Positions 6,167-30,338 of a stretch of 64,000 nt of DNA are shown here, in pieces (within the stretch, counting starts at the first letter, position 1; each line of letters begins with the position of its first letter). The translations under genes and the position numbers were made by a program. Origin of the DNA: Arthrobacter sp. 131MFCol6.1. Lineage in GTDB: Bacteria; Actinomycetota; Actinomycetes; Actinomycetales; Micrococcaceae. The notes beneath the pieces were generated by a model. The model was given only the letters and a program-made list of their open reading frames with translations. It made no database searches and had not been told where the DNA came from. The stretch spans positions 124,001 to 188,000 of the forward strand of contig NZ_KB895541.1 of assembly GCF_000374925.1 (NCBI RefSeq). Reading direction: 5' to 3'.

Positions 6167-6517
6167 TTACTGCCACAGGGTCGCGATCGCAACGTTGAGC
6201 AGTGCCAGGCCGCCAACGCTGTTGGCGAGGCCCTTGCTGATCGGCTCGCCCTTCTTGTACTTGCGGCGGCCAATGAAGGCCAGCACGCCGACGATCAGGG
6301 CGATGACGAGCTTGACGCCGAGCTTGGCGTAGTTGGCGTTCATGTCCAGGGCCGGGATCAGTCCCATCATGATGATGCCCGTGATCAGCTGCAGCATCGC
6401 GCCGTCGAACTGGCGCGGGTGGACGGTGGGCTTCTTCATCTGGCCGATCCAGATGCCGACAATCATGGCGGCGCCGATGATGTGCAGGAAGACCATGACG
6501 TTATAGACGATGTTCAT
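6167..6517 (-). CDS. Small four-helix membrane protein, function unknown
   Basis: A 116-residue protein with four hydrophobic segments: residues 3-25 (MVFLHIIGAAMIVGIWIG), 40-58 (LQLITGIIMMGLIPALDM), 66-83 (LGVKLVIALIVGVLAFIG) and 97-114. A His in helix 1 and another just after it (KPTVHPRQFDG) are the only obvious ligands. The overall pattern recalls small haem- or metal-associated membrane families such as CopD- or DUF2214-like proteins, but I cannot assign it. It appears leaderless: TACACT, six bases, then ATG. A near-perfect copy of the palindrome found at cydA overlaps its expected -35 region, so it may belong to the BlaI regulon proposed here. It is flanked by unrelated genes. Confidence 0.8.
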   Translation of the reverse strand: MNIVYNVMVFLHIIGAAMIVGIWIGQMKKPTVHPRQFDGAMLQLITGIIMMGLIPALDMNANYAKLGVKLVIALIVGVLAFIGRRKYKKGEPISKGLANSVGGLALLNVAIATLWQ

Positions 6518-6538: not shown

Positions 6539-6555
6539 TTCTACGCACCGTAGTA
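6539..6555. promoter_or_regulatory. BlaI-type operator candidate, membrane protein promoter
   Basis: TTCTAC-GCACC-GTAGTA matches the TTCTAC-N5-GTAGAA palindrome repeated three times upstream of cydA, with one mismatch. It lies 22 bases upstream of the start codon and covers the position expected for the -35 element, where a bound repressor would block transcription. Confidence 0.5.
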
Positions 6556-22293: not shown

Positions 22294-23283
22294 TTAGCCG
22301 AGCAGGCCGGGGACCAGCAACAGGGCCGTCGGCACGGCCAGCAGGAGCACGCAGCAGGCCAGGACGGCGGCGCGAAGCGGTTCCGACAGCGGCGGCTGCG
22401 GCGAGAGCAGGCGGCTGACGCGGGACGCCGTCGTACCCGCCGAGCCACTGCCTCCGGTGGCGCCGGGCTGGCTGGGGTCGACGTCGGACAGGCGAGGCTC
22501 GCCGAATGCCATGCGCACCGCCGGGGTGGCCTGGGACCCGCTGGCCACAATGGCAATCGCCCTGATCAGGGTCGCCTTGCTCTCCGTCTTGAGCGCAACG
22601 TCGTCGGCCAGCATCTCGATCAGGGAGTTGACCGACTCCTGCGCCAGCCGGGTGGTGGGCAGCCACGGCAGGGCCTGGCGCCACGCGGCGAAGGCCCACA
22701 GCAGGAGGTGGTGGCGCTGGCTCAGGTGGGCGTTCTCGTGAATCAGCACGGCGCGCAATTCATCGGGTTCCAGGGCGGCCATGAGGCCGTCGGAGAGAAC
22801 AGTCACAGACCGTGCGCCGCCGGGCAGGCAGTACGCCACGGGCGAGTCCACGTTCAGGACCATGGTCCCCGGGCCGTCGGAGGACGGTGAGGCCAGAAGG
22901 TCCAGCAGCTCGCGGTGGCGCCGGCGCTGGCGCTGGATCTTGTAGTAGGTCAGCAGCAGGGTAAATACCAGGTGCGCCGTCAGCAGGGCCGCGGCCGAGA
23001 GCGCAAAGATGTGCCAGAAGCCCAGTTCTGTGGTGGGTGCATTGTGGAAGACCATTCCCCCCAGCGCCCGCAGGCCGGAGAGCAGGTTGTCCCCGACCGG
23101 CTCGAGCCCGTAGACCAGCATGGCGCCGATCATGGACAGGCCGCCGGCCAGGGCGATCGCCTGCCACAGCAGCATCGCCGTGAAGGGGGAGCGGGCCGGC
23201 CACTGTGCACGGGAGAGCAGGATAGGCACCGGCCACGCCAATGCTATCGCCAGGACCGCCAGAAAATATGAGGTCCAGAACAT
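22294..23283 (-). CDS. M56 family membrane metallopeptidase (BlaR1/MecR1-like)
   Basis: A 329-residue membrane peptidase of the M56 family, whose members (BlaR1, MecR1) sense a signal and inactivate a cognate BlaI/MecI repressor. Hydrophobic segments at about residues 1-22, 35-58, 90-115 and 300-325 frame a cytoplasmic catalytic domain. The zinc motif HENAH is at residues 182-186, and a downstream Glu lies in SLIEMLADDVAL. Unlike BlaR1 there is no C-terminal penicillin-binding sensor domain; the protein ends just after the last helix, so the signal is unlikely to be a beta-lactam bound there. Its ATG lies six bases after the blaI stop without a ribosome binding site, suggesting translational coupling. 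Confidence 0.9.
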   Translation of the reverse strand: MFWTSYFLAVLAIALAWPVPILLSRAQWPARSPFTAMLLWQAIALAGGLSMIGAMLVYGLEPVGDNLLSGLRALGGMVFHNAPTTELGFWHIFALSAAALLTAHLVFTLLLTYYKIQRQRRRHRELLDLLASPSSDGPGTMVLNVDSPVAYCLPGGARSVTVLSDGLMAALEPDELRAVLIHENAHLSQRHHLLLWAFAAWRQALPWLPTTRLAQESVNSLIEMLADDVALKTESKATLIRAIAIVASGSQATPAVRMAFGEPRLSDVDPSQPGATGGSGSAGTTASRVSRLLSPQPPLSEPLRAAVLACCVLLLAVPTALLLVPGLLG

Positions 23284-23289
23284 CGGGCG

Positions 23290-23676
23290 CTAGCTGCGGC
23301 CCAATAGCTTGCGCAGGGTTTCTGCCTCGTTGTCTGTGACGGAACCAATGAACCGGGCCAGGACGGCTTCGCGGTCCGGGGCGGAGCCGAGGACCTCGTG
23401 CATGAGTTCCGCGGTGTGGTCCGCGCGGCTCGAGACGGCCTGGTAGCGGTGGGGGCGGGTGCCGCGTTCGCGTTCCACGAGGCCCTTCCGCTCAAGACGC
23501 GAGAGCACGGTCAGCACTGTGGTGACCGCGAGGTCCTTGCCCACGTGTCCGGCGCTGCCGTCCTGGGGCTGGGTGCTTTGTGCGAGGAGGTCCCGCAACG
23601 TGTTGGCTGTCGCAGCTTCTTGGCCTGCCCAGAGCAGGTCCATCACTGCCCGTTCCAGTTCACCGAGACTTGCCAT
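23290..23676 (-). CDS. BlaI/MecI/CopY family transcriptional repressor
   Basis: A 128-residue winged-helix repressor. The N-terminus ASLGELERAVMDLLW and the helix AVTTVLTVLSRLERKGLVERERGTRPHRYQAV are the family signature; the C-terminal helices form the dimerisation and proteolysis domain. The start at 23676 is preferred to one three codons upstream because GAAGGA sits eight bases before it. It is the first gene of a pair with the M56 peptidase. It is divergent from cydABDC across 319 bases holding three copies of the palindrome TTCTAC-N5-GTAGAA, the likely operators. Repression of both directions, relieved when M56 cleaves BlaI, is inferred from this layout. Confidence 0.92.
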   Translation of the reverse strand: MASLGELERAVMDLLWAGQEAATANTLRDLLAQSTQPQDGSAGHVGKDLAVTTVLTVLSRLERKGLVERERGTRPHRYQAVSSRADHTAELMHEVLGSAPDREAVLARFIGSVTDNEAETLRKLLGRS

Positions 23677-23791
23677 TGCGTACATCCTTCTATGCCTGCC
23701 GCGCCGGCGTCATGCTGGGAAACTGCTGGTGCCTGCCGGAGCGGTGTATGTGAATACTTCGTTTACAAATTTACCGCGTTTTGCGCATTCT

Positions 23792-23808
23792 TTCTACATG
23801 AAGTAGAA
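23792..23808. promoter_or_regulatory. BlaI-type operator candidate 1
   Basis: TTCTAC-ATGAA-GTAGAA, a perfect 6-bp inverted repeat with a 5-base spacer. It is 116 bases upstream of blaI and suited to autoregulation. The core resembles known BlaI/MecI operators, which contain TACA/TGTA or TAC/GTA half-sites. Confidence 0.7.
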
Positions 23809-23900
23809 CACGGCCGCCCGGCGTGTCGGGCCGTCGTCCGGGCGTGGCGGGTCAGGGCCCTTCTTCCATTGCAGGCCGTGACGCGCCGTGGGAGTCTGAG

Positions 23901-23930
23901 TTACGGGGAGGCGCGGATGTGTTCTACACT
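23901..23930 (+). promoter_or_regulatory. Candidate cydA promoter
   Basis: TTACGG (23901-23906) and TACACT (23925-23930) are separated by 18 bases. The -10 hexamer lies inside operator candidate 2, so a bound repressor would occlude it. Confidence 0.45.
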
Positions 23931-23938
23931 CTGTAGAA
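23922..23938. promoter_or_regulatory. BlaI-type operator candidate 2
   Basis: TTCTAC-ACTCT-GTAGAA, perfect 6-bp arms and a 5-base spacer, overlapping the candidate cydA -10 element. Confidence 0.75.
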
Positions 23939-23944
23939 GAATTA

Positions 23945-23963
23945 CTTCTACGCCACGTAGAAG
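23945..23963. promoter_or_regulatory. BlaI-type operator candidate 3
   Basis: CTTCTAC-GCCAC-GTAGAAG, the best of the set with 7-bp perfect arms. Its centre is 24 bases from that of site 2, and it lies between the predicted transcription start and the cydA start codon. Confidence 0.75.
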
Positions 23964-23995
23964 TTGCTCGGACCTAGCCAAAAGTAGGGACTGCC

Positions 23996-25591
23996 TTGGA
24001 CGCCTTGGAAATCGCACGCTGGCAATTCGGAATCACCACGGTCTACCACTTCATGATGGTGCCGCTCACGATCGGCCTCGGGCTGGTGGTGGCAGTGATC
24101 CAGACGCTCTGGTACCGCACCGGCAAGCCGGAATACCTGCGCATGACCAAGTTCTGGGGCAAGCTCTTCCTGATTAACTTCATCATGGGCGTGGCCACCG
24201 GAATCGTGCAGGAGTTCCAGTTCGGCATGGCCTGGAGCGAGTACAGCCGCTTTGTCGGTGACGTCTTTGGCGCCCCGCTGGCCCTGGAGGCGCTGCTGGC
24301 CTTCTTCGTCGAGTCAACCTTCCTCGGCCTGTGGATCTTCGGCTGGAAACAGCTCAAGCCCGCCGTCCACCTGGCCTGCCTCTGGGTCGCCGTCATTGGC
24401 TCCGTCTTCTCGGCCTACTTCATCATCGTGGCCAACAGTTGGATGCAGCACCCCGTCGGCGTCGAAATGGTCAACGGCCGGCCCGTTATGACCGACGCGT
24501 GGGCCGTCTTCACCAACAACACCGCCCTCGTCGCCGTACCCCACACCCTCTTCGGCGCCCTCGCGGTCGCCGGAGGGTTCCTGCTCGGCATCGCCTGGTA
24601 CCACCTGTGGCGCCGGCGCCACGACGGCATCGACACGGTCGGCGCCGACGGCAAGGTGATCCCCGGCGAGGCCGCCGGCATCCTCGGCCGGGACCGCAGT
24701 GACCACACCGTCTGGATCCGCTCGCTGAGGATCGGCGCCGTCGTCGCCATGATTTCCTTCGCGGGCACCGCCTTCACCGGAGATCTGCAGGGCAAGCTCA
24801 TGTTCGAGCAGCAGCCCATGAAGATGGCCGCCGCCGAGGCAGCCTGCCACGATGGCACCGGCTTCTCGGTCCTCAGCGTCGGCAACCTCGGCGCGAAGAA
24901 CTGCGACGACATCGTGGCCGTGATCGAGGTCCCGGGCATCCTGTCCTTCCTGGCCAAGGGCGACTTCACCACCGAAGTCAAGGGCGTCAACAGCCTGCTG
25001 GGCGAGTACCAGGCCAAGTACGGCACGACGCTGCCGGACAACCCCATCTACGGGGACCGCGCCGGCCAGCAAATCCAGTACGTGCCCGTCATGGAGGTCA
25101 CCTACTGGGGCTTCCGGATGATGATCGGCTTCGGCGGCGTGGCCGCCCTGGCCGCCCTCCTGGCACTGTGGGCCACCCGCAAGGGAACCGTGCCGGCGTC
25201 CCGCGGCCTGATGCGCCTGGCGGTGTTCGGCATCCTCGCACCGTTCGGCGCCAATGCGGCGGGCTGGATCTTCACCGAGATGGGCCGCCAGCCGTTCGTC
25301 GTCGCCCCCAACCCGGACCCCAGCGGCATCGACCAGGTCTTCATGTTCACCGCCGCGGCCGTCTCCTCGGGCGTCTCGGCCGGAGAGATCCTGACCTCCC
25401 TCGTGGTCCTGACCTCCATCTATGCGGTGCTGCTGGTGGTGGAGGTCAAGCTCCTGGTCAAGTACATCCGCGGCGGCGTGGCCTCGGCCATGCCGGAACT
25501 CGCCCACGCCCCCGTTGACGAAAACGAAGACGGCACCCCCCGGGGCGGTCCCGGTAAACCCGACGACGACGTCCTGGCGTTCGCCTACTAG
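23996..25591 (+). CDS. cydA: Cytochrome bd ubiquinol oxidase subunit I
   Basis: A 531-residue membrane subunit of the high-affinity terminal oxidase, which oxidises quinol and reduces O2 to water. Haem ligands by motif are His18 (VYHFMM), His183 (AVPHTLFG) and a Met at 375/376 (FRMMIG); GRQPFVV is the conserved loop near the quinol site. The Q-loop is of the short type, without the long insert of E. coli CydA. The start is a TTG at 23996 with TAGGGA about seven bases upstream; ATG is not available nearby. It is first in cydA-cydB-cydDC. Two palindromic operators in the promoter suggest BlaI control. The charged C-terminal tail has an Asp/Glu/Pro-rich end. Confidence 0.96.
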   Translation: MDALEIARWQFGITTVYHFMMVPLTIGLGLVVAVIQTLWYRTGKPEYLRMTKFWGKLFLINFIMGVATGIVQEFQFGMAWSEYSRFVGDVFGAPLALEALLAFFVESTFLGLWIFGWKQLKPAVHLACLWVAVIGSVFSAYFIIVANSWMQHPVGVEMVNGRPVMTDAWAVFTNNTALVAVPHTLFGALAVAGGFLLGIAWYHLWRRRHDGIDTVGADGKVIPGEAAGILGRDRSDHTVWIRSLRIGAVVAMISFAGTAFTGDLQGKLMFEQQPMKMAAAEAACHDGTGFSVLSVGNLGAKNCDDIVAVIEVPGILSFLAKGDFTTEVKGVNSLLGEYQAKYGTTLPDNPIYGDRAGQQIQYVPVMEVTYWGFRMMIGFGGVAALAALLALWATRKGTVPASRGLMRLAVFGILAPFGANAAGWIFTEMGRQPFVVAPNPDPSGIDQVFMFTAAAVSSGVSAGEILTSLVVLTSIYAVLLVVEVKLLVKYIRGGVASAMPELAHAPVDENEDGTPRGGPGKPDDDVLAFAY

Positions 25592-25653: not shown

Positions 25654-26703
<1,050 letters not shown>

Positions 26704-26711
26704 CTCCCCTG

Positions 26712-29700
26712 ATGAGACCGTTCCCCGCCGGCCCCGCGACCCGTTCCGCCCTCTACCTGCTGGGACTGATTGCCGCCCTGAAGGCGCTCTCCCTGGTGCT
26801 CATGGCACAGGCTGTGGCATCGATGCTCGCCGGGCTCGCCGCTCATGACCCCGCCTGGGCAGACCAGCTGGTTCTGGGTGCCGCGGGGGCAGTGCTGCGC
26901 TCATTGACCGTATGGGCCCAGTCCGTGGCCTCACGCCGGGCAGCGCTCGGAGTGAAGGAGGAGCTGCGCTCTCAACTGCTGGAGCAGGCACTGAGGAACG
27001 GCACACGGTCGGCCGGGCCCGCCGACGGCGGCCTCGCCGTGCTGGCCACCCGGGGGCTGGATGCCCTGGATAACTACTACACCCAGTTCCTGCCCGCGCT
27101 GGTGAACTGCGCGGCCATTCCGCTGCTGCTGGGGGCCCGCATCCTGTTCGCCGACTGGGTCAGCGCGGTGGTGATCGTGCTGACGGTGCCGCTGGTGCCG
27201 CTGTTCATGATCCTGATCGGGCGGTACACCGAGGAACGCGTCCGGGACGCCCAGTCCGCACTGGCCCGGCTCTCCGGGCACATGCTCGAGCTCGCCAAAG
27301 GCCTGCCCGTCCTCGTGGGCCTGGGCCGGGCCTCCGCCCAGCGCCAGGCGCTGGAAGACATGTCCGAGGAATATCGTTCCCGGACCATGGGGACCCTGCG
27401 CACGGCCTTCCTCTCCGCCCTGGCCCTGGAGCTCATCTCGACGATTTCCGTGGCGGTCGTCGCCGTGTTCATCGGCGTCCGCCTGGTCCACGGCGACATG
27501 GCGCTTGAGGCGGGGCTGCTTGCCCTCATCCTCGCCCCCGACTGCTACCTGCCGCTCCGGGAGCTCGGCACCGCACACCACGCCAGCGACGACGGCCGGG
27601 CAGCACTCGCCGAAACCACTGCGGTCCTCGCGGACCCGGGAGCCGCGCCGCTGATTCCGGTGCCGGCCACCGGTCCTGCATCGGGCCCGCCCGCCGTCAC
27701 CGTGGACGGGCTGACCGTCCGCTTCGGCGGACGCACGGACGTCGCCGTCGGGCCGCTGAGCTTCACCGCCGCCGCCGGCCAGATCACGGCACTCGCCGGG
27801 TCAAGCGGCGCCGGCAAGAGCACCGTGCTCGGAGTCCTCGCGGGAACCATCGGGACGGGCGCGGGGACCGTCGTGTCCGGGCGCCTCGGAGGATTCACGA
27901 CGGCGGAGGTCGCCTGGGTGCCCCAGCACCCCGTCATGGTGGCCTCGACGGTGCTGGACGAGATCCGCCTGTATCTCGGCGTTCCCGCCGATGAAGCCGA
28001 CGCCGCCGCGGCCGGCACAGCCGTGGGCGCGGAAGCCGATGCGGCAGCGCAGCGGTGCCTCGCGGCCGTGGGCGCGGGGCACCTGGCCGCCAAGCACCCG
28101 GCCGAGCTGAGCCCGGGGGAGCTGAGGCGGGTTGCGCTGGCCCGCGGGCTGGCGAGGATCGAGGCCGGCGCCCGCGTACTGCTCCTGGATGAACCCACCG
28201 CCCATCTGGACCGGGGATCCGCCACACTGGTCAACCGCGCCCTCGCCGGGCTCCGGGGACAGGTCACCGTGCTGCTCGTTGCACACGACCGGCGGACCCG
28301 GGACCTTGCCGACGCGCTCGTCGCAGTGGCGCCGGGCGCCGGAGGGCACCATGCCGGTGATTCTGCGGCCCCCGTTCCGCCGCTGCCGGCATCCGCCGGG
28401 GCAGACCCGGGCGTGCACGCGGCGGCCACCCGGGCGCCGTTCCTCGTGGGCGCCGCGGCGCCGAGCCAAGGCCAAAGGCCGGACCTTAGCCCGGCCCCGG
28501 GTCTGACCCCGGACGGCCCTGAAACCGGCGCCCCACCTGCCGCGGCCGCGGGTTCAGTGAGCTCAATCGACGCCGGCGCAGTTGGCTGGTCCGGTTCGGT
28601 CCCTGCGCAGCTGCGTCGCCTGCTGGCCCCGGTACAGGGCCGGTTTGCCGGCGCCGGAGCCGTGGGCACTTTGGCGGCGCTGTTCGCCGTCGCCCTCGCA
28701 GGACTTTCCGGCTGGCTCATCATCCGCGCCAGCGAACAGCCGCCCATCCTGTACCTGCTCACCGCGATCGTCGGCGTGAGGTTTTTCGGCGTCGGCCGGG
28801 CGTGCCTGCGGTACTCCGAACGGCTGCTGCTGCATGACGCCGTGTTCGCCGCCCTGACCCGGCTCCGGGGCCGGCTCTGGGAGTCGCTGAGCCGCCGGGC
28901 ACTGTCCCTGCGCCGGCTCCTGCAGGGCGGCAACGTACTGGGAACGGTGGTGGACGACGTCGACACGGTCCGCGAGCTGTTGCCCCGCGTCGTGCTGCCG
29001 CCCGTGACTGCCATAGCTGTTGCCGCCGCCGCGGTGGTCGGAATCGGGCTGCTGCTGCCCGCGGCGCTGCCTGCCGTGGGAGCGGCAGCGCTGCTGAGCA
29101 TCGTCGTCGCCCCCGCCCTGGCCCTGGCCGCCGACCGCATGTCTGCCGGCACCGAACAAAAACTCCGTTCCGGCGTGCTCCGTCACGTTGCCGCCGCCCT
29201 GGACGCCCGCGCAGAACTGAATGCCAACGGCGTGAGCGCCCCCGTGCTTGGTGCGATTGGCCGGGCTGACCGCGCCGCGACGGCGGCCTCACAGCGGTCG
29301 GCATGGGCGGAGGGGCTCGGCCAGGCCCTGACCGTCCTGGCCTGCGCCGGAGCCGCCCTGGCCAGCGCCCTGCTGGCCGCCCCGCTCGCCCTTAGCGGCG
29401 CGGTCGAACCGGAGACTGTTGCCGTCGTCGTCCTCGTGCAGCTTGCCCTGGTGGACCCCTACGCGGCCATCACCACGGCCGTGCGGCAGTACCCCGCGCT
29501 GCGCGCCGTGATGCGGCGGATCAGCGCGGCAGGAGTCCTGGAGCCGGGGGCAAACGGTGACCCGGACAGCGACTCCGCAACGGGCGGACTCGTGCACGTG
29601 GCTTCGCGGCCCGGCAACAGGCCAGGGATTGAACTCGCGGACCTCGCTGCCGCGTGGCCTGGTGGGGGAGATGTCTTTAGTGGACTCACGGCAGAGGCCG

Positions 29701-30338
29701 GCCCCGGGCGCTGGCTGGCCATCACCGGCGCCTCTGGCTCCGGCAAGTCAACTCTGCTGGCCGCGATCCTGGGTTTCCTGCCGGCGGCCAGCGGCCACCT
29801 GTACCTGAGCGGACGCGCGGCCTGGTGCCCGCAGGAGGCGCACCTGTTCGACTCGACCATCCGGGGCAACCTTCTCCTGGCGCGGCCGGAGCCCGCTCCC
29901 GCCGGCACGGACGGTGCGCAGCGTGGAACCGGGGATGCCGTGTTGGCCAAAGGGGACGAGCAGATGCGGGCTGCCCTCGACGCGGTCGGACTCGGCCCGA
30001 TGCTGGCCCGGCTCGAGGACGGCCTGGACACCCGGATCGGCCCGGGCGGGGCCTTCCTCAGCGGCGGGGAGCGTACCCGCCTGGCCGTTGCGCGCACGCT
30101 CATGACCGGGGCCGATGTCATCCTGCTCGATGAACCGACGGCGCACCTCGATGCGGAGTCAGGCAGGCGCATGCTCGCCGAATTGCGCGACGGGCTGCGC
30201 GGCCGGACCGTTGTCCTGGTCACCCACAACCCGAACGATATCGACGCCGCCGACACCAGACTGGACCTGGACGCCGCAGCCGCCGCTGCCGCCGCGGGCG
30301 AGGGTCCGGCGACGGCGGCCGTGCTGGCGCGGGGGTAG
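26712..30338 (+). CDS. cydDC: Fused thiol-reductant ABC exporter CydDC
   Basis: A 1208-residue single-chain fusion of CydD and CydC, each with a six-helix membrane domain and an ATPase domain. In other bacteria they are two proteins that export cysteine or glutathione (or handle haem) and are needed to assemble cytochrome bd. ATPase 1: Walker A GSSGAGKST near residue 363, signature LSPGELRRVALARGL, Walker B LLLDEPTAHLD. ATPase 2: Walker A GASGSGKST near 1006, signature LSGGERTRLAVARTL, Walker B ILLDEPTAHLD. An Ala/Pro/Gly-rich linker of about 90 residues joins the halves. The ATG is eight bases after cydB. Fused CydDC proteins are known in other actinobacteria. Last gene of the cyd operon. 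Confidence 0.95.
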   Translation: MRPFPAGPATRSALYLLGLIAALKALSLVLMAQAVASMLAGLAAHDPAWADQLVLGAAGAVLRSLTVWAQSVASRRAALGVKEELRSQLLEQALRNGTRSAGPADGGLAVLATRGLDALDNYYTQFLPALVNCAAIPLLLGARILFADWVSAVVIVLTVPLVPLFMILIGRYTEERVRDAQSALARLSGHMLELAKGLPVLVGLGRASAQRQALEDMSEEYRSRTMGTLRTAFLSALALELISTISVAVVAVFIGVRLVHGDMALEAGLLALILAPDCYLPLRELGTAHHASDDGRAALAETTAVLADPGAAPLIPVPATGPASGPPAVTVDGLTVRFGGRTDVAVGPLSFTAAAGQITALAGSSGAGKSTVLGVLAGTIGTGAGTVVSGRLGGFTTAEVAWVPQHPVMVASTVLDEIRLYLGVPADEADAAAAGTAVGAEADAAAQRCLAAVGAGHLAAKHPAELSPGELRRVALARGLARIEAGARVLLLDEPTAHLDRGSATLVNRALAGLRGQVTVLLVAHDRRTRDLADALVAVAPGAGGHHAGDSAAPVPPLPASAGADPGVHAAATRAPFLVGAAAPSQGQRPDLSPAPGLTPDGPETGAPPAAAAGSVSSIDAGAVGWSGSVPAQLRRLLAPVQGRFAGAGAVGTLAALFAVALAGLSGWLIIRASEQPPILYLLTAIVGVRFFGVGRACLRYSERLLLHDAVFAALTRLRGRLWESLSRRALSLRRLLQGGNVLGTVVDDVDTVRELLPRVVLPPVTAIAVAAAAVVGIGLLLPAALPAVGAAALLSIVVAPALALAADRMSAGTEQKLRSGVLRHVAAALDARAELNANGVSAPVLGAIGRADRAATAASQRSAWAEGLGQALTVLACAGAALASALLAAPLALSGAVEPETVAVVVLVQLALVDPYAAITTAVRQYPALRAVMRRISAAGVLEPGANGDPDSDSATGGLVHVASRPGNRPGIELADLAAAWPGGGDVFSGLTAEAGPGRWLAITGASGSGKSTLLAAILGFLPAASGHLYLSGRAAWCPQEAHLFDSTIRGNLLLARPEPAPAGTDGAQRGTGDAVLAKGDEQMRAALDAVGLGPMLARLEDGLDTRIGPGGAFLSGGERTRLAVARTLMTGADVILLDEPTAHLDAESGRRMLAELRDGLRGRTVVLVTHNPNDIDAADTRLDLDAAAAAAAAGEGPATAAVLARG

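Follow-up and report, generated by a model that had tools for sequence, protein, structure and literature searches.

The closest described relatives of the system analysed here are the staphylococcal BlaI/MecI-BlaR1/MecR1 systems, whose operators have TAC/GTA dyads, the BlaI (Rv1846c)/BlaR (Rv1845c) pair of Mycobacterium tuberculosis and the PetR/PetP pair of Synechocystis. According to the accessible parts of PMC5473688, M. tuberculosis BlaI binds the cytochrome bd and ATP synthase promoters, mycobacterial BlaR is devoid of a sensor domain, the response of M. tuberculosis to beta-lactams is unexplained since this domain is missing, and a control of blaR by WhiB4 has been proposed. Excerpts of two further papers state that mycobacterial BlaI binds and represses the Rv1303-atp operon (PMC12565901) and that growth of M. 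tuberculosis on haemin needs blaR (PMC7058343). PetR and PetP, as presented in part of a commentary (PMC7896320), are a BlaI-like regulator and a BlaR1-like protease that work with copper as the signal and with post-translational removal of PetR.

The locus described here lies in a window of 64,000 nucleotides from Arthrobacter sp. 131MFCol6.1, the whole stretch of DNA that was analysed, and places blaI and the gene of an M56-like membrane metallopeptidase divergently to cydA, cydB and a fused cydDC (Table 1). The initial annotation had named these neighbours and had reported three identical copies of the palindrome TTCTAC-N5-GTAGAA in the blaI-cydA gap. Both claims hold: BlaI, CydA and CydB are identified by profile, a single open reading frame matches CydD as well as CydC, and the three palindromes were recovered by an exact-match scan. 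The start of cydDC was placed by eye within an open reading frame that opens at 26367, and the likely start of blaI is its second ATG, at 23676.

Table 1. Coordinates of the putative operators and of the genes discussed in the text (positions within the window)
Feature	Position	Strand	Remarks
M56-like membrane metallopeptidase of 329 aa without sensor domain; probably the protease that partners BlaI	22294..23283	-	HExxH 182, E223; Pfam M48/M56 scores
BlaI-family repressor	23290..23685	-	PF03965, 71.8 bits (cut-off 22.6)
Operator 1	23792..23808		blaI side; exact match
Operator 2	23922..23938		would cover the cydA -10 element (conserved ACACT in spacer); exact match
Operator 3	23946..23962		follows operator 2 at 24 bp; between the start codon and the presumed promoter; exact match
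cydA, TTG start	23996..25591	+	PF01654, 501.6 bits
cydB	25654..26703	+	PF02322, 343.8 bits
Fused cydDC	26712..30338	+	TIGR02857 671.1 bits, TIGR02868 618.2 bits, both above cut-off
116-aa membrane protein gene, predicted regulon member	6167..6517	-	open reading frame; no Pfam family
One-mismatch operator (TTCTACGCACCGTAGTA)	6539..6555		in 5/5 genomes searched with one mismatch, 21 bp from the start of the orthologue

A chance origin of the palindromes is excluded by comparison with shuffled sequence and by their conservation in same-genus relatives. With up to three mismatches allowed, the window contains 13 matches, a number reached by none of 100 shuffles (mean 3.89, sd 2.15, largest 10). 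The whole genome of 4.43 Mb has seven exact matches, three of which are those of the blaI-cydA gap, as against three matches to a reversed control pattern. Operator 2 would lie over a putative cydA -10 element, as proposed in the initial annotation; the one basis for this element is the conserved ACACT in the spacer of site 2, which fits it, and a promoter scan of positions 23600-24060 gave no sigma-70-like promoter above the threshold of the tool.

We consider it likely that BlaI binds the three operators and represses cydABDC and its own gene within a regulon of some twelve operons, and that the sensor-less protease would induce these genes by cutting BlaI. A BlaI dimer would occupy each dyad; occupancy of site 2 would hide the cydA -10 element, occupancy of site 3 would obstruct the transcribed region near its beginning, and occupancy of site 1 would give autorepression of blaI. 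In parallel, BlaI would repress hemQ, hmp, a His-phosphatase/tlpA/ccdA/resB operon, ABC-ctaA, qcrCAB, atp, sucCD and three genes for small membrane proteins. The M56-like protease is predicted to cut BlaI near F112 upon a shortfall of the respiratory chain, of haem or of copper, sensed via its membrane part, and the outcome would be a rise of the whole electron-transport chain rather than the exchange of one oxidase for another. We favour repression because the operators lie over or beside promoter-like elements and because BlaI is reported to repress atp in mycobacteria (excerpt of PMC12565901).

The recognition helix of BlaI carries V54 and L58 (131-aa numbering), and the nearest solved structure is 2g9w, which we take to be that of Rv1846c BlaI. 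The protein also matches the MecI profile (9.1e-12), and its R111-F112 aligns with N101-F102 of MecI, presumably the bond that is cut there; the Phe is kept, and the Asn is replaced by Arg here and by His in BlaI of several relatives. The blaI gene of the window is the only full-length Penicillinase_R gene of the genome, the one other match being partial (26.1 bits). As for the protease, it exceeds the Pfam cut-off for M48 (39.1 bits, cut-off 20.3) and stays below that for M56 (24.9 bits, cut-off 31), and its HExxH zinc-protease motif lies between hydrophobic segments, as judged by hydrophobicity only. No sensor domain is found: the last hydrophobic segment comprises residues 306-324 and the stop follows five residues on, so that the absence of a penicillin-binding sensor domain claimed for this protein is borne out by its hydrophobicity profile. 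Nor was one found in relatives, where motif and stop are at most 193 residues apart in the loci in which the motif was found (136 of 157).

The locus thus resembles the staphylococcal systems in the BlaI fold family, in the adjacent zinc protease and, at the level of sequence, in TAC/GTA dyads at its own and at target promoters, but differs from them in that it lacks the penicillin-binding sensor domain, has mostly respiratory targets and does not keep the scissile Asn. The sensor-less protease and the presence of BlaI at the cytochrome bd and ATP synthase promoters, predicted in the case of this locus, are shared with M. tuberculosis (parts of PMC5473688 and PMC12565901), as is, by way of 2g9w, the nearest structure. 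Different from M. tuberculosis, blaI and the M56-like gene are physically linked to cyd here, and the half-site is TTCTAC. With PetR/PetP the locus has in common that regulator and protease are encoded next to electron-transfer genes and control them, the latter being a prediction here; according to the available part of PMC7896320, the cyanobacterial regulon comprises four proteins, as compared to the dozen or so operons predicted for BlaI.

But would BlaI have to be cut at all? It might repress respiration and yet be released by sensing of a ligand or of the redox state, or have its level set by transcription. The lack of the scissile Asn, a protease without a sensor domain and the control by WhiB4 proposed for blaR of M. 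tuberculosis (part of PMC5473688) would be in keeping with this. However, blaI has the protease as its neighbour in 78 of the 80 named actinobacterial loci (the best 80 of 592), neither HExxH nor the third ligand varies among the 11 aligned proteases, and PetP removes PetR post-translationally in the cyanobacterium (part of PMC7896320). We regard regulation by BlaI that does not involve cutting as unlikely, though not negligible, and prefer cleavage by the partner protease.

The initial annotation had proposed a switch that serves cytochrome bd and its CydDC exporter. This is not borne out by the distribution of the operator in the genome. The four exact sites outside the blaI-cydA gap precede hemQ, hmp, the cytochrome c maturation (ccs) operon with the gene order His-phosphatase/tlpA/ccdA/resB, and a small membrane protein gene. 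Eight more sites have one mismatch, and six of them precede operons, namely qcrC (qcrCAB), ABC-ctaA, the atp operon, sucC (sucCD) and two further small membrane protein genes; the other two (L005:4001 and L008:4001) were set aside as they lie inside coding sequences, ArsR-like and haemolysin-III-like in our naming by eye. Sites with two mismatches number 50. The qcrC and ctaA sites belong to the competing bcc-aa3 branch, and those at the genes for haem and for cytochrome c maturation, at hmp, at ATP synthase and at sucCD likewise speak against a switch centred on cytochrome bd. On the other hand, the link to ATP synthase that the initial annotation had named for mycobacterial BlaI agrees both with the repression of Rv1303-atp stated in PMC12565901 (excerpt) and with a one-mismatch site here, which lies before a small atpI-like gene that precedes atpB. 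Compared with the M. tuberculosis targets named in the available parts of PMC5473688 and PMC12565901, the set extends to haem, cytochrome c maturation, the bcc complex, haem A, hmp and sucCD. At none of the seven exact and eight one-mismatch sites did inspection by eye reveal a gene for a beta-lactamase or PBP2a, and in the lack of a recognised beta-lactamase gene at these sites the genome differs from M. tuberculosis. The three small membrane proteins with operators (window 6167-6517; L004:6076-6435; L008:7151-7501) match no Pfam family, nor does the small atpI-like protein; the former three are candidates for new respiratory or haem factors.

The same operons recur in relatives. Two sets of sites were fetched, which share the genome G020: 45 non-cyd exact sites from ten relatives, taken among the matches listed and with one G062 site excluded, and every non-cyd site with at most one mismatch from five genomes assembled in one or two contigs, which together added 17 exact and 39 one-mismatch sites. 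Among the matches listed, 61 of the 62 exact sites lie at hemQ (14), hmp (13), ccs (14), the membrane protein gene (14) or a pyridoxamine-oxidase-like gene (6). Hence 55 of the 61 belong to the four operons seen in Arthrobacter sp. 131MFCol6.1, and the remaining six to the pyridoxamine-oxidase-like gene, which has neither an exact nor a one-mismatch site in this genome. The 62nd site (L066:2001, G061) is near copC. The one-mismatch sites lie at such genes in 30 of 39 cases (sucC 5, the atpI-like gene 5, ABC-ctaA 5, qcrC 4, the two other membrane protein genes 5 and 5, the pyridoxamine-oxidase-like gene 1), 29 of which correspond to the six operons found here, and nine are at none of the listed genes. 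All 91 sites (61 exact and 30 with one mismatch) are located 4-197 bp before these 11 genes, and the qcrC site, which is present in four of five genomes, is embedded in DNA that is conserved on all sides.

Judged from these sites, the targets look like a respiratory-capacity regulon of roughly a dozen operons, most of which serve respiration or haem. That BlaI and the protease would induce cyd and CydDC alone has some points in its favour: cydA stands divergently beside blaI and the M56-like gene in 25 of the 80 named loci (the best 80 of 592), the cyd side has two operators as against one encounter per genome for every other target in the relatives, and, outside the family but within the order, cydA accounts for three of the four strict sites. 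It is nonetheless improbable, and we dismiss it since the operator recurs in relatives before hemQ, hmp, ccs, qcrC, ctaA, the atp operon and sucC.

Two of these targets show further elements beside the operator. Upstream of hemQ (L001 and relatives) a conserved CRP-like sequence, TGTGA..T....CAC, directly abuts the BlaI site; upstream of hmp (L002 and relatives) the site is accompanied by an NsrR-like gene of the Rrf2 family and an AT-rich box that is conserved, and NO defence by hmp is likely to be under double control.

Who, then, binds the palindromes? Within the genus, a BlaI match stronger than E 1e-65 was present in 36 of the 37 genomes searched and was missing in one that is 68% complete. 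In 28 of the 29 loci first fetched, cydA is divergent and all three palindromes are exact; of four further loci, three have all three and one (L240, G167) has two. The check proposed in the initial annotation, a comparison of this intergenic region among related genomes, thus gave palindromes that are conserved where the gene order is kept, with three exact sites in 31 of 33 same-genus loci in total while the spacers drift. One genome (G014) kept a single site, and cydA is absent from this place. The register between sites 2 and 3 is 23-25 bp in the relatives. An alignment of 31 gaps (30 relatives and the window, selected for three exact sites, one long gap excluded) has an identity of 74% in the 15 spacer columns and 51% in the 290 other gap columns, the 36 half-site columns being identical by selection. 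Across 41 genomes of the genus, 40 contain 6-9 exact sites and one (G027, 68% complete) contains three; the control pattern occurs 0-3 times.

The sites also go together with BlaI in a sample of 120 genomes of the family, in which an orthologue was defined by E below 1e-20. The 104 genomes with an orthologue have a median of five exact sites (range 0-15; one genome with zero), the 12 without BlaI have none in 11 cases and one in the other, and four with only a weak match have one each (Mann-Whitney test of orthologue versus rest, ignoring phylogeny, p 2e-10; control pattern p 0.07). This holds within genera too: in g27 three genomes without BlaI have no site and two with BlaI have one each, and in g35 three genomes without BlaI have no site and two with BlaI have one and none. 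The exceptions are G151, with BlaI and no site, and G120, with a site and no BlaI. Moreover, recognition helix and half-site vary together. In a scan that left the first two letters of the half-site free, 152 of 164 loci could be scored and 12 had no dyad: among 192 half-sites beside a BlaI with a Tyr helix 178 begin with TA and none with TT, and among 378 beside a non-Tyr helix 374 begin with TT and two with TA, so that Tyr goes with TACTAC and Val with TTCTAC. The loci in which the scan found no dyad include 11 of the Tyr type. A further one, L089 (G041), has blaI and the M56-like gene beside cydA, the helix LTTVHTV and no N5 dyad detectable by the scan; here the operator may have changed again. 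The change of helix and half-site may represent one or a few evolutionary events shared by descent.

Conservation of the palindromes together with the gene order, their loss together with BlaI and their covariation with its recognition helix make it very probable that BlaI uses them as operators of cyd and of its own gene. The binding of BlaI claimed in the initial annotation thereby gains support from these three lines, all of them drawn from sequence. Ownership of the palindromes by another respiratory regulator of the NsrR, CRP or Rex type, with BlaI nearby by chance, could appeal to the NsrR-like gene and the AT-rich box at hmp and to the CRP-like sequence at hemQ, but is very unlikely: the sites are absent in 11 of the 12 family genomes without BlaI, also within g27 and g35, the half-site letter tracks a residue of the BlaI helix, and Rhodococcus ruber has exact sites both at blaI and at an unlinked cydA. 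That the palindromes work as RNA hairpins or terminators is scarcely credible as the main reading and is dismissed, as the arms do not co-vary, the half-site sequence being unchanged in 31 of 33 same-genus loci, and in the membrane protein class of L004 the site comes after a conserved TAAACTAG at the promoter position, even though the hemQ site of this genome also lies inside a terminator-like hairpin with extra flanking pairing and a T run and site 3 passes the terminator scan on the minus strand (one found, shuffle mean 0.6).

Putative BlaI operators of this kind are found beyond the family as well. Among 22 genomes from other families of the order six have a BlaI match, and in five of these blaI and the M56-like gene form one cluster with cyd (L088, L089, L091, L093 and, downstream of cydDC, L096); the sixth (G037) has two copies of the pair, one near tlpA-resB. 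A strict TWCTAC search of the 22 genomes gave four places, three upstream of cydA in clusters with BlaI and one in a genome without a BlaI match (G055). The named actinobacterial loci range from Kineococcus to Mycobacterium; being the best 80 of 592 and selected by patterns that include AYTTVMTV, they are biased to the Tyr helix. In their 25 cyd-linked gaps N5 dyads agree in 11-12 of 12 letters, a value reached by none of 300 mononucleotide shuffles in 24 gaps and by one in the remaining gap. From the 55 loci not linked to cyd, 18 were scored without a shuffle control, and 14 have at least 11 of the 12 letters, two have 10 and two have 7-8. A strict TACTAC-N5-GTAGTA search of five genomes of the Tyr type gave nine places, six of them at cydA or blaI; Kribbella had none, and the surroundings of the two exact TACTAC sites in Mycobacterium simulans contained no gene that we recognised as respiratory. 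The three exact TACTAC sites of Rhodococcus ruber, which has no cydA within 8 kb of blaI, are at blaI, at cydA and at a PCu(A)C copper-chaperone locus (L293:1501).

Operator-like sites near copper genes thus occur in two relatives, at CopC (L066, G061) and at PCu(A)C (R. ruber), which hints that copper and the assembly of oxidases are connected. Haem and copper may be taken as leads for the signal, because haemin growth depends on blaR (excerpt of PMC7058343), because PetR/PetP responds to copper (PMC7896320, in part) and because of the sites near copC and PCu(A)C. Tentatively, we suggest that BlaI and a sensor-less M56-like protease could form a controller dedicated to the whole respiratory chain that is widespread in Actinomycetia, and perhaps ancestral, and that has an operator code of its own, in which the protease would sense the state of the chain, haem or copper, and of which the control of beta-lactamase would be a side branch.

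The kind of system described here is already known from M. tuberculosis; new are its breadth, its conservation, the linkage to cyd and the operator code. In the literature surveyed, in which Sala 2009 on the M. tuberculosis regulon figured as a citation, we met no account of this regulon for organisms other than mycobacteria. One small regulator, removed by its partner membrane protease, is predicted to set the respiratory capacity of the cell. This would give one point of access to the question of when actinobacteria increase both oxidase branches in concert with haem supply and ATP synthase. A relative outside mycobacteria that has the pair beside cyd and a compact, strongly conserved regulon makes it directly testable what sensor-less BlaR proteases sense, and the loci provide a natural series for how the BlaI helix chooses its half-site.

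Individual lineages depart from the common pattern. In the same-genus locus L018 (G010) all three sites are present, and the distance between operators 1 and 2 is 815 bp as compared to the usual 87-212 bp, probably owing to an insertion between them. In the family genus g24, all six sampled genomes are without a BlaI match and five of the six without sites, and this genus is a natural loss of the BlaI system. Finally, the genomes of genus g33 (G073, G103, G127, G150 and G168) contain 9-15 exact sites, about two to three times the family median of five, and possibly have an enlarged regulon.
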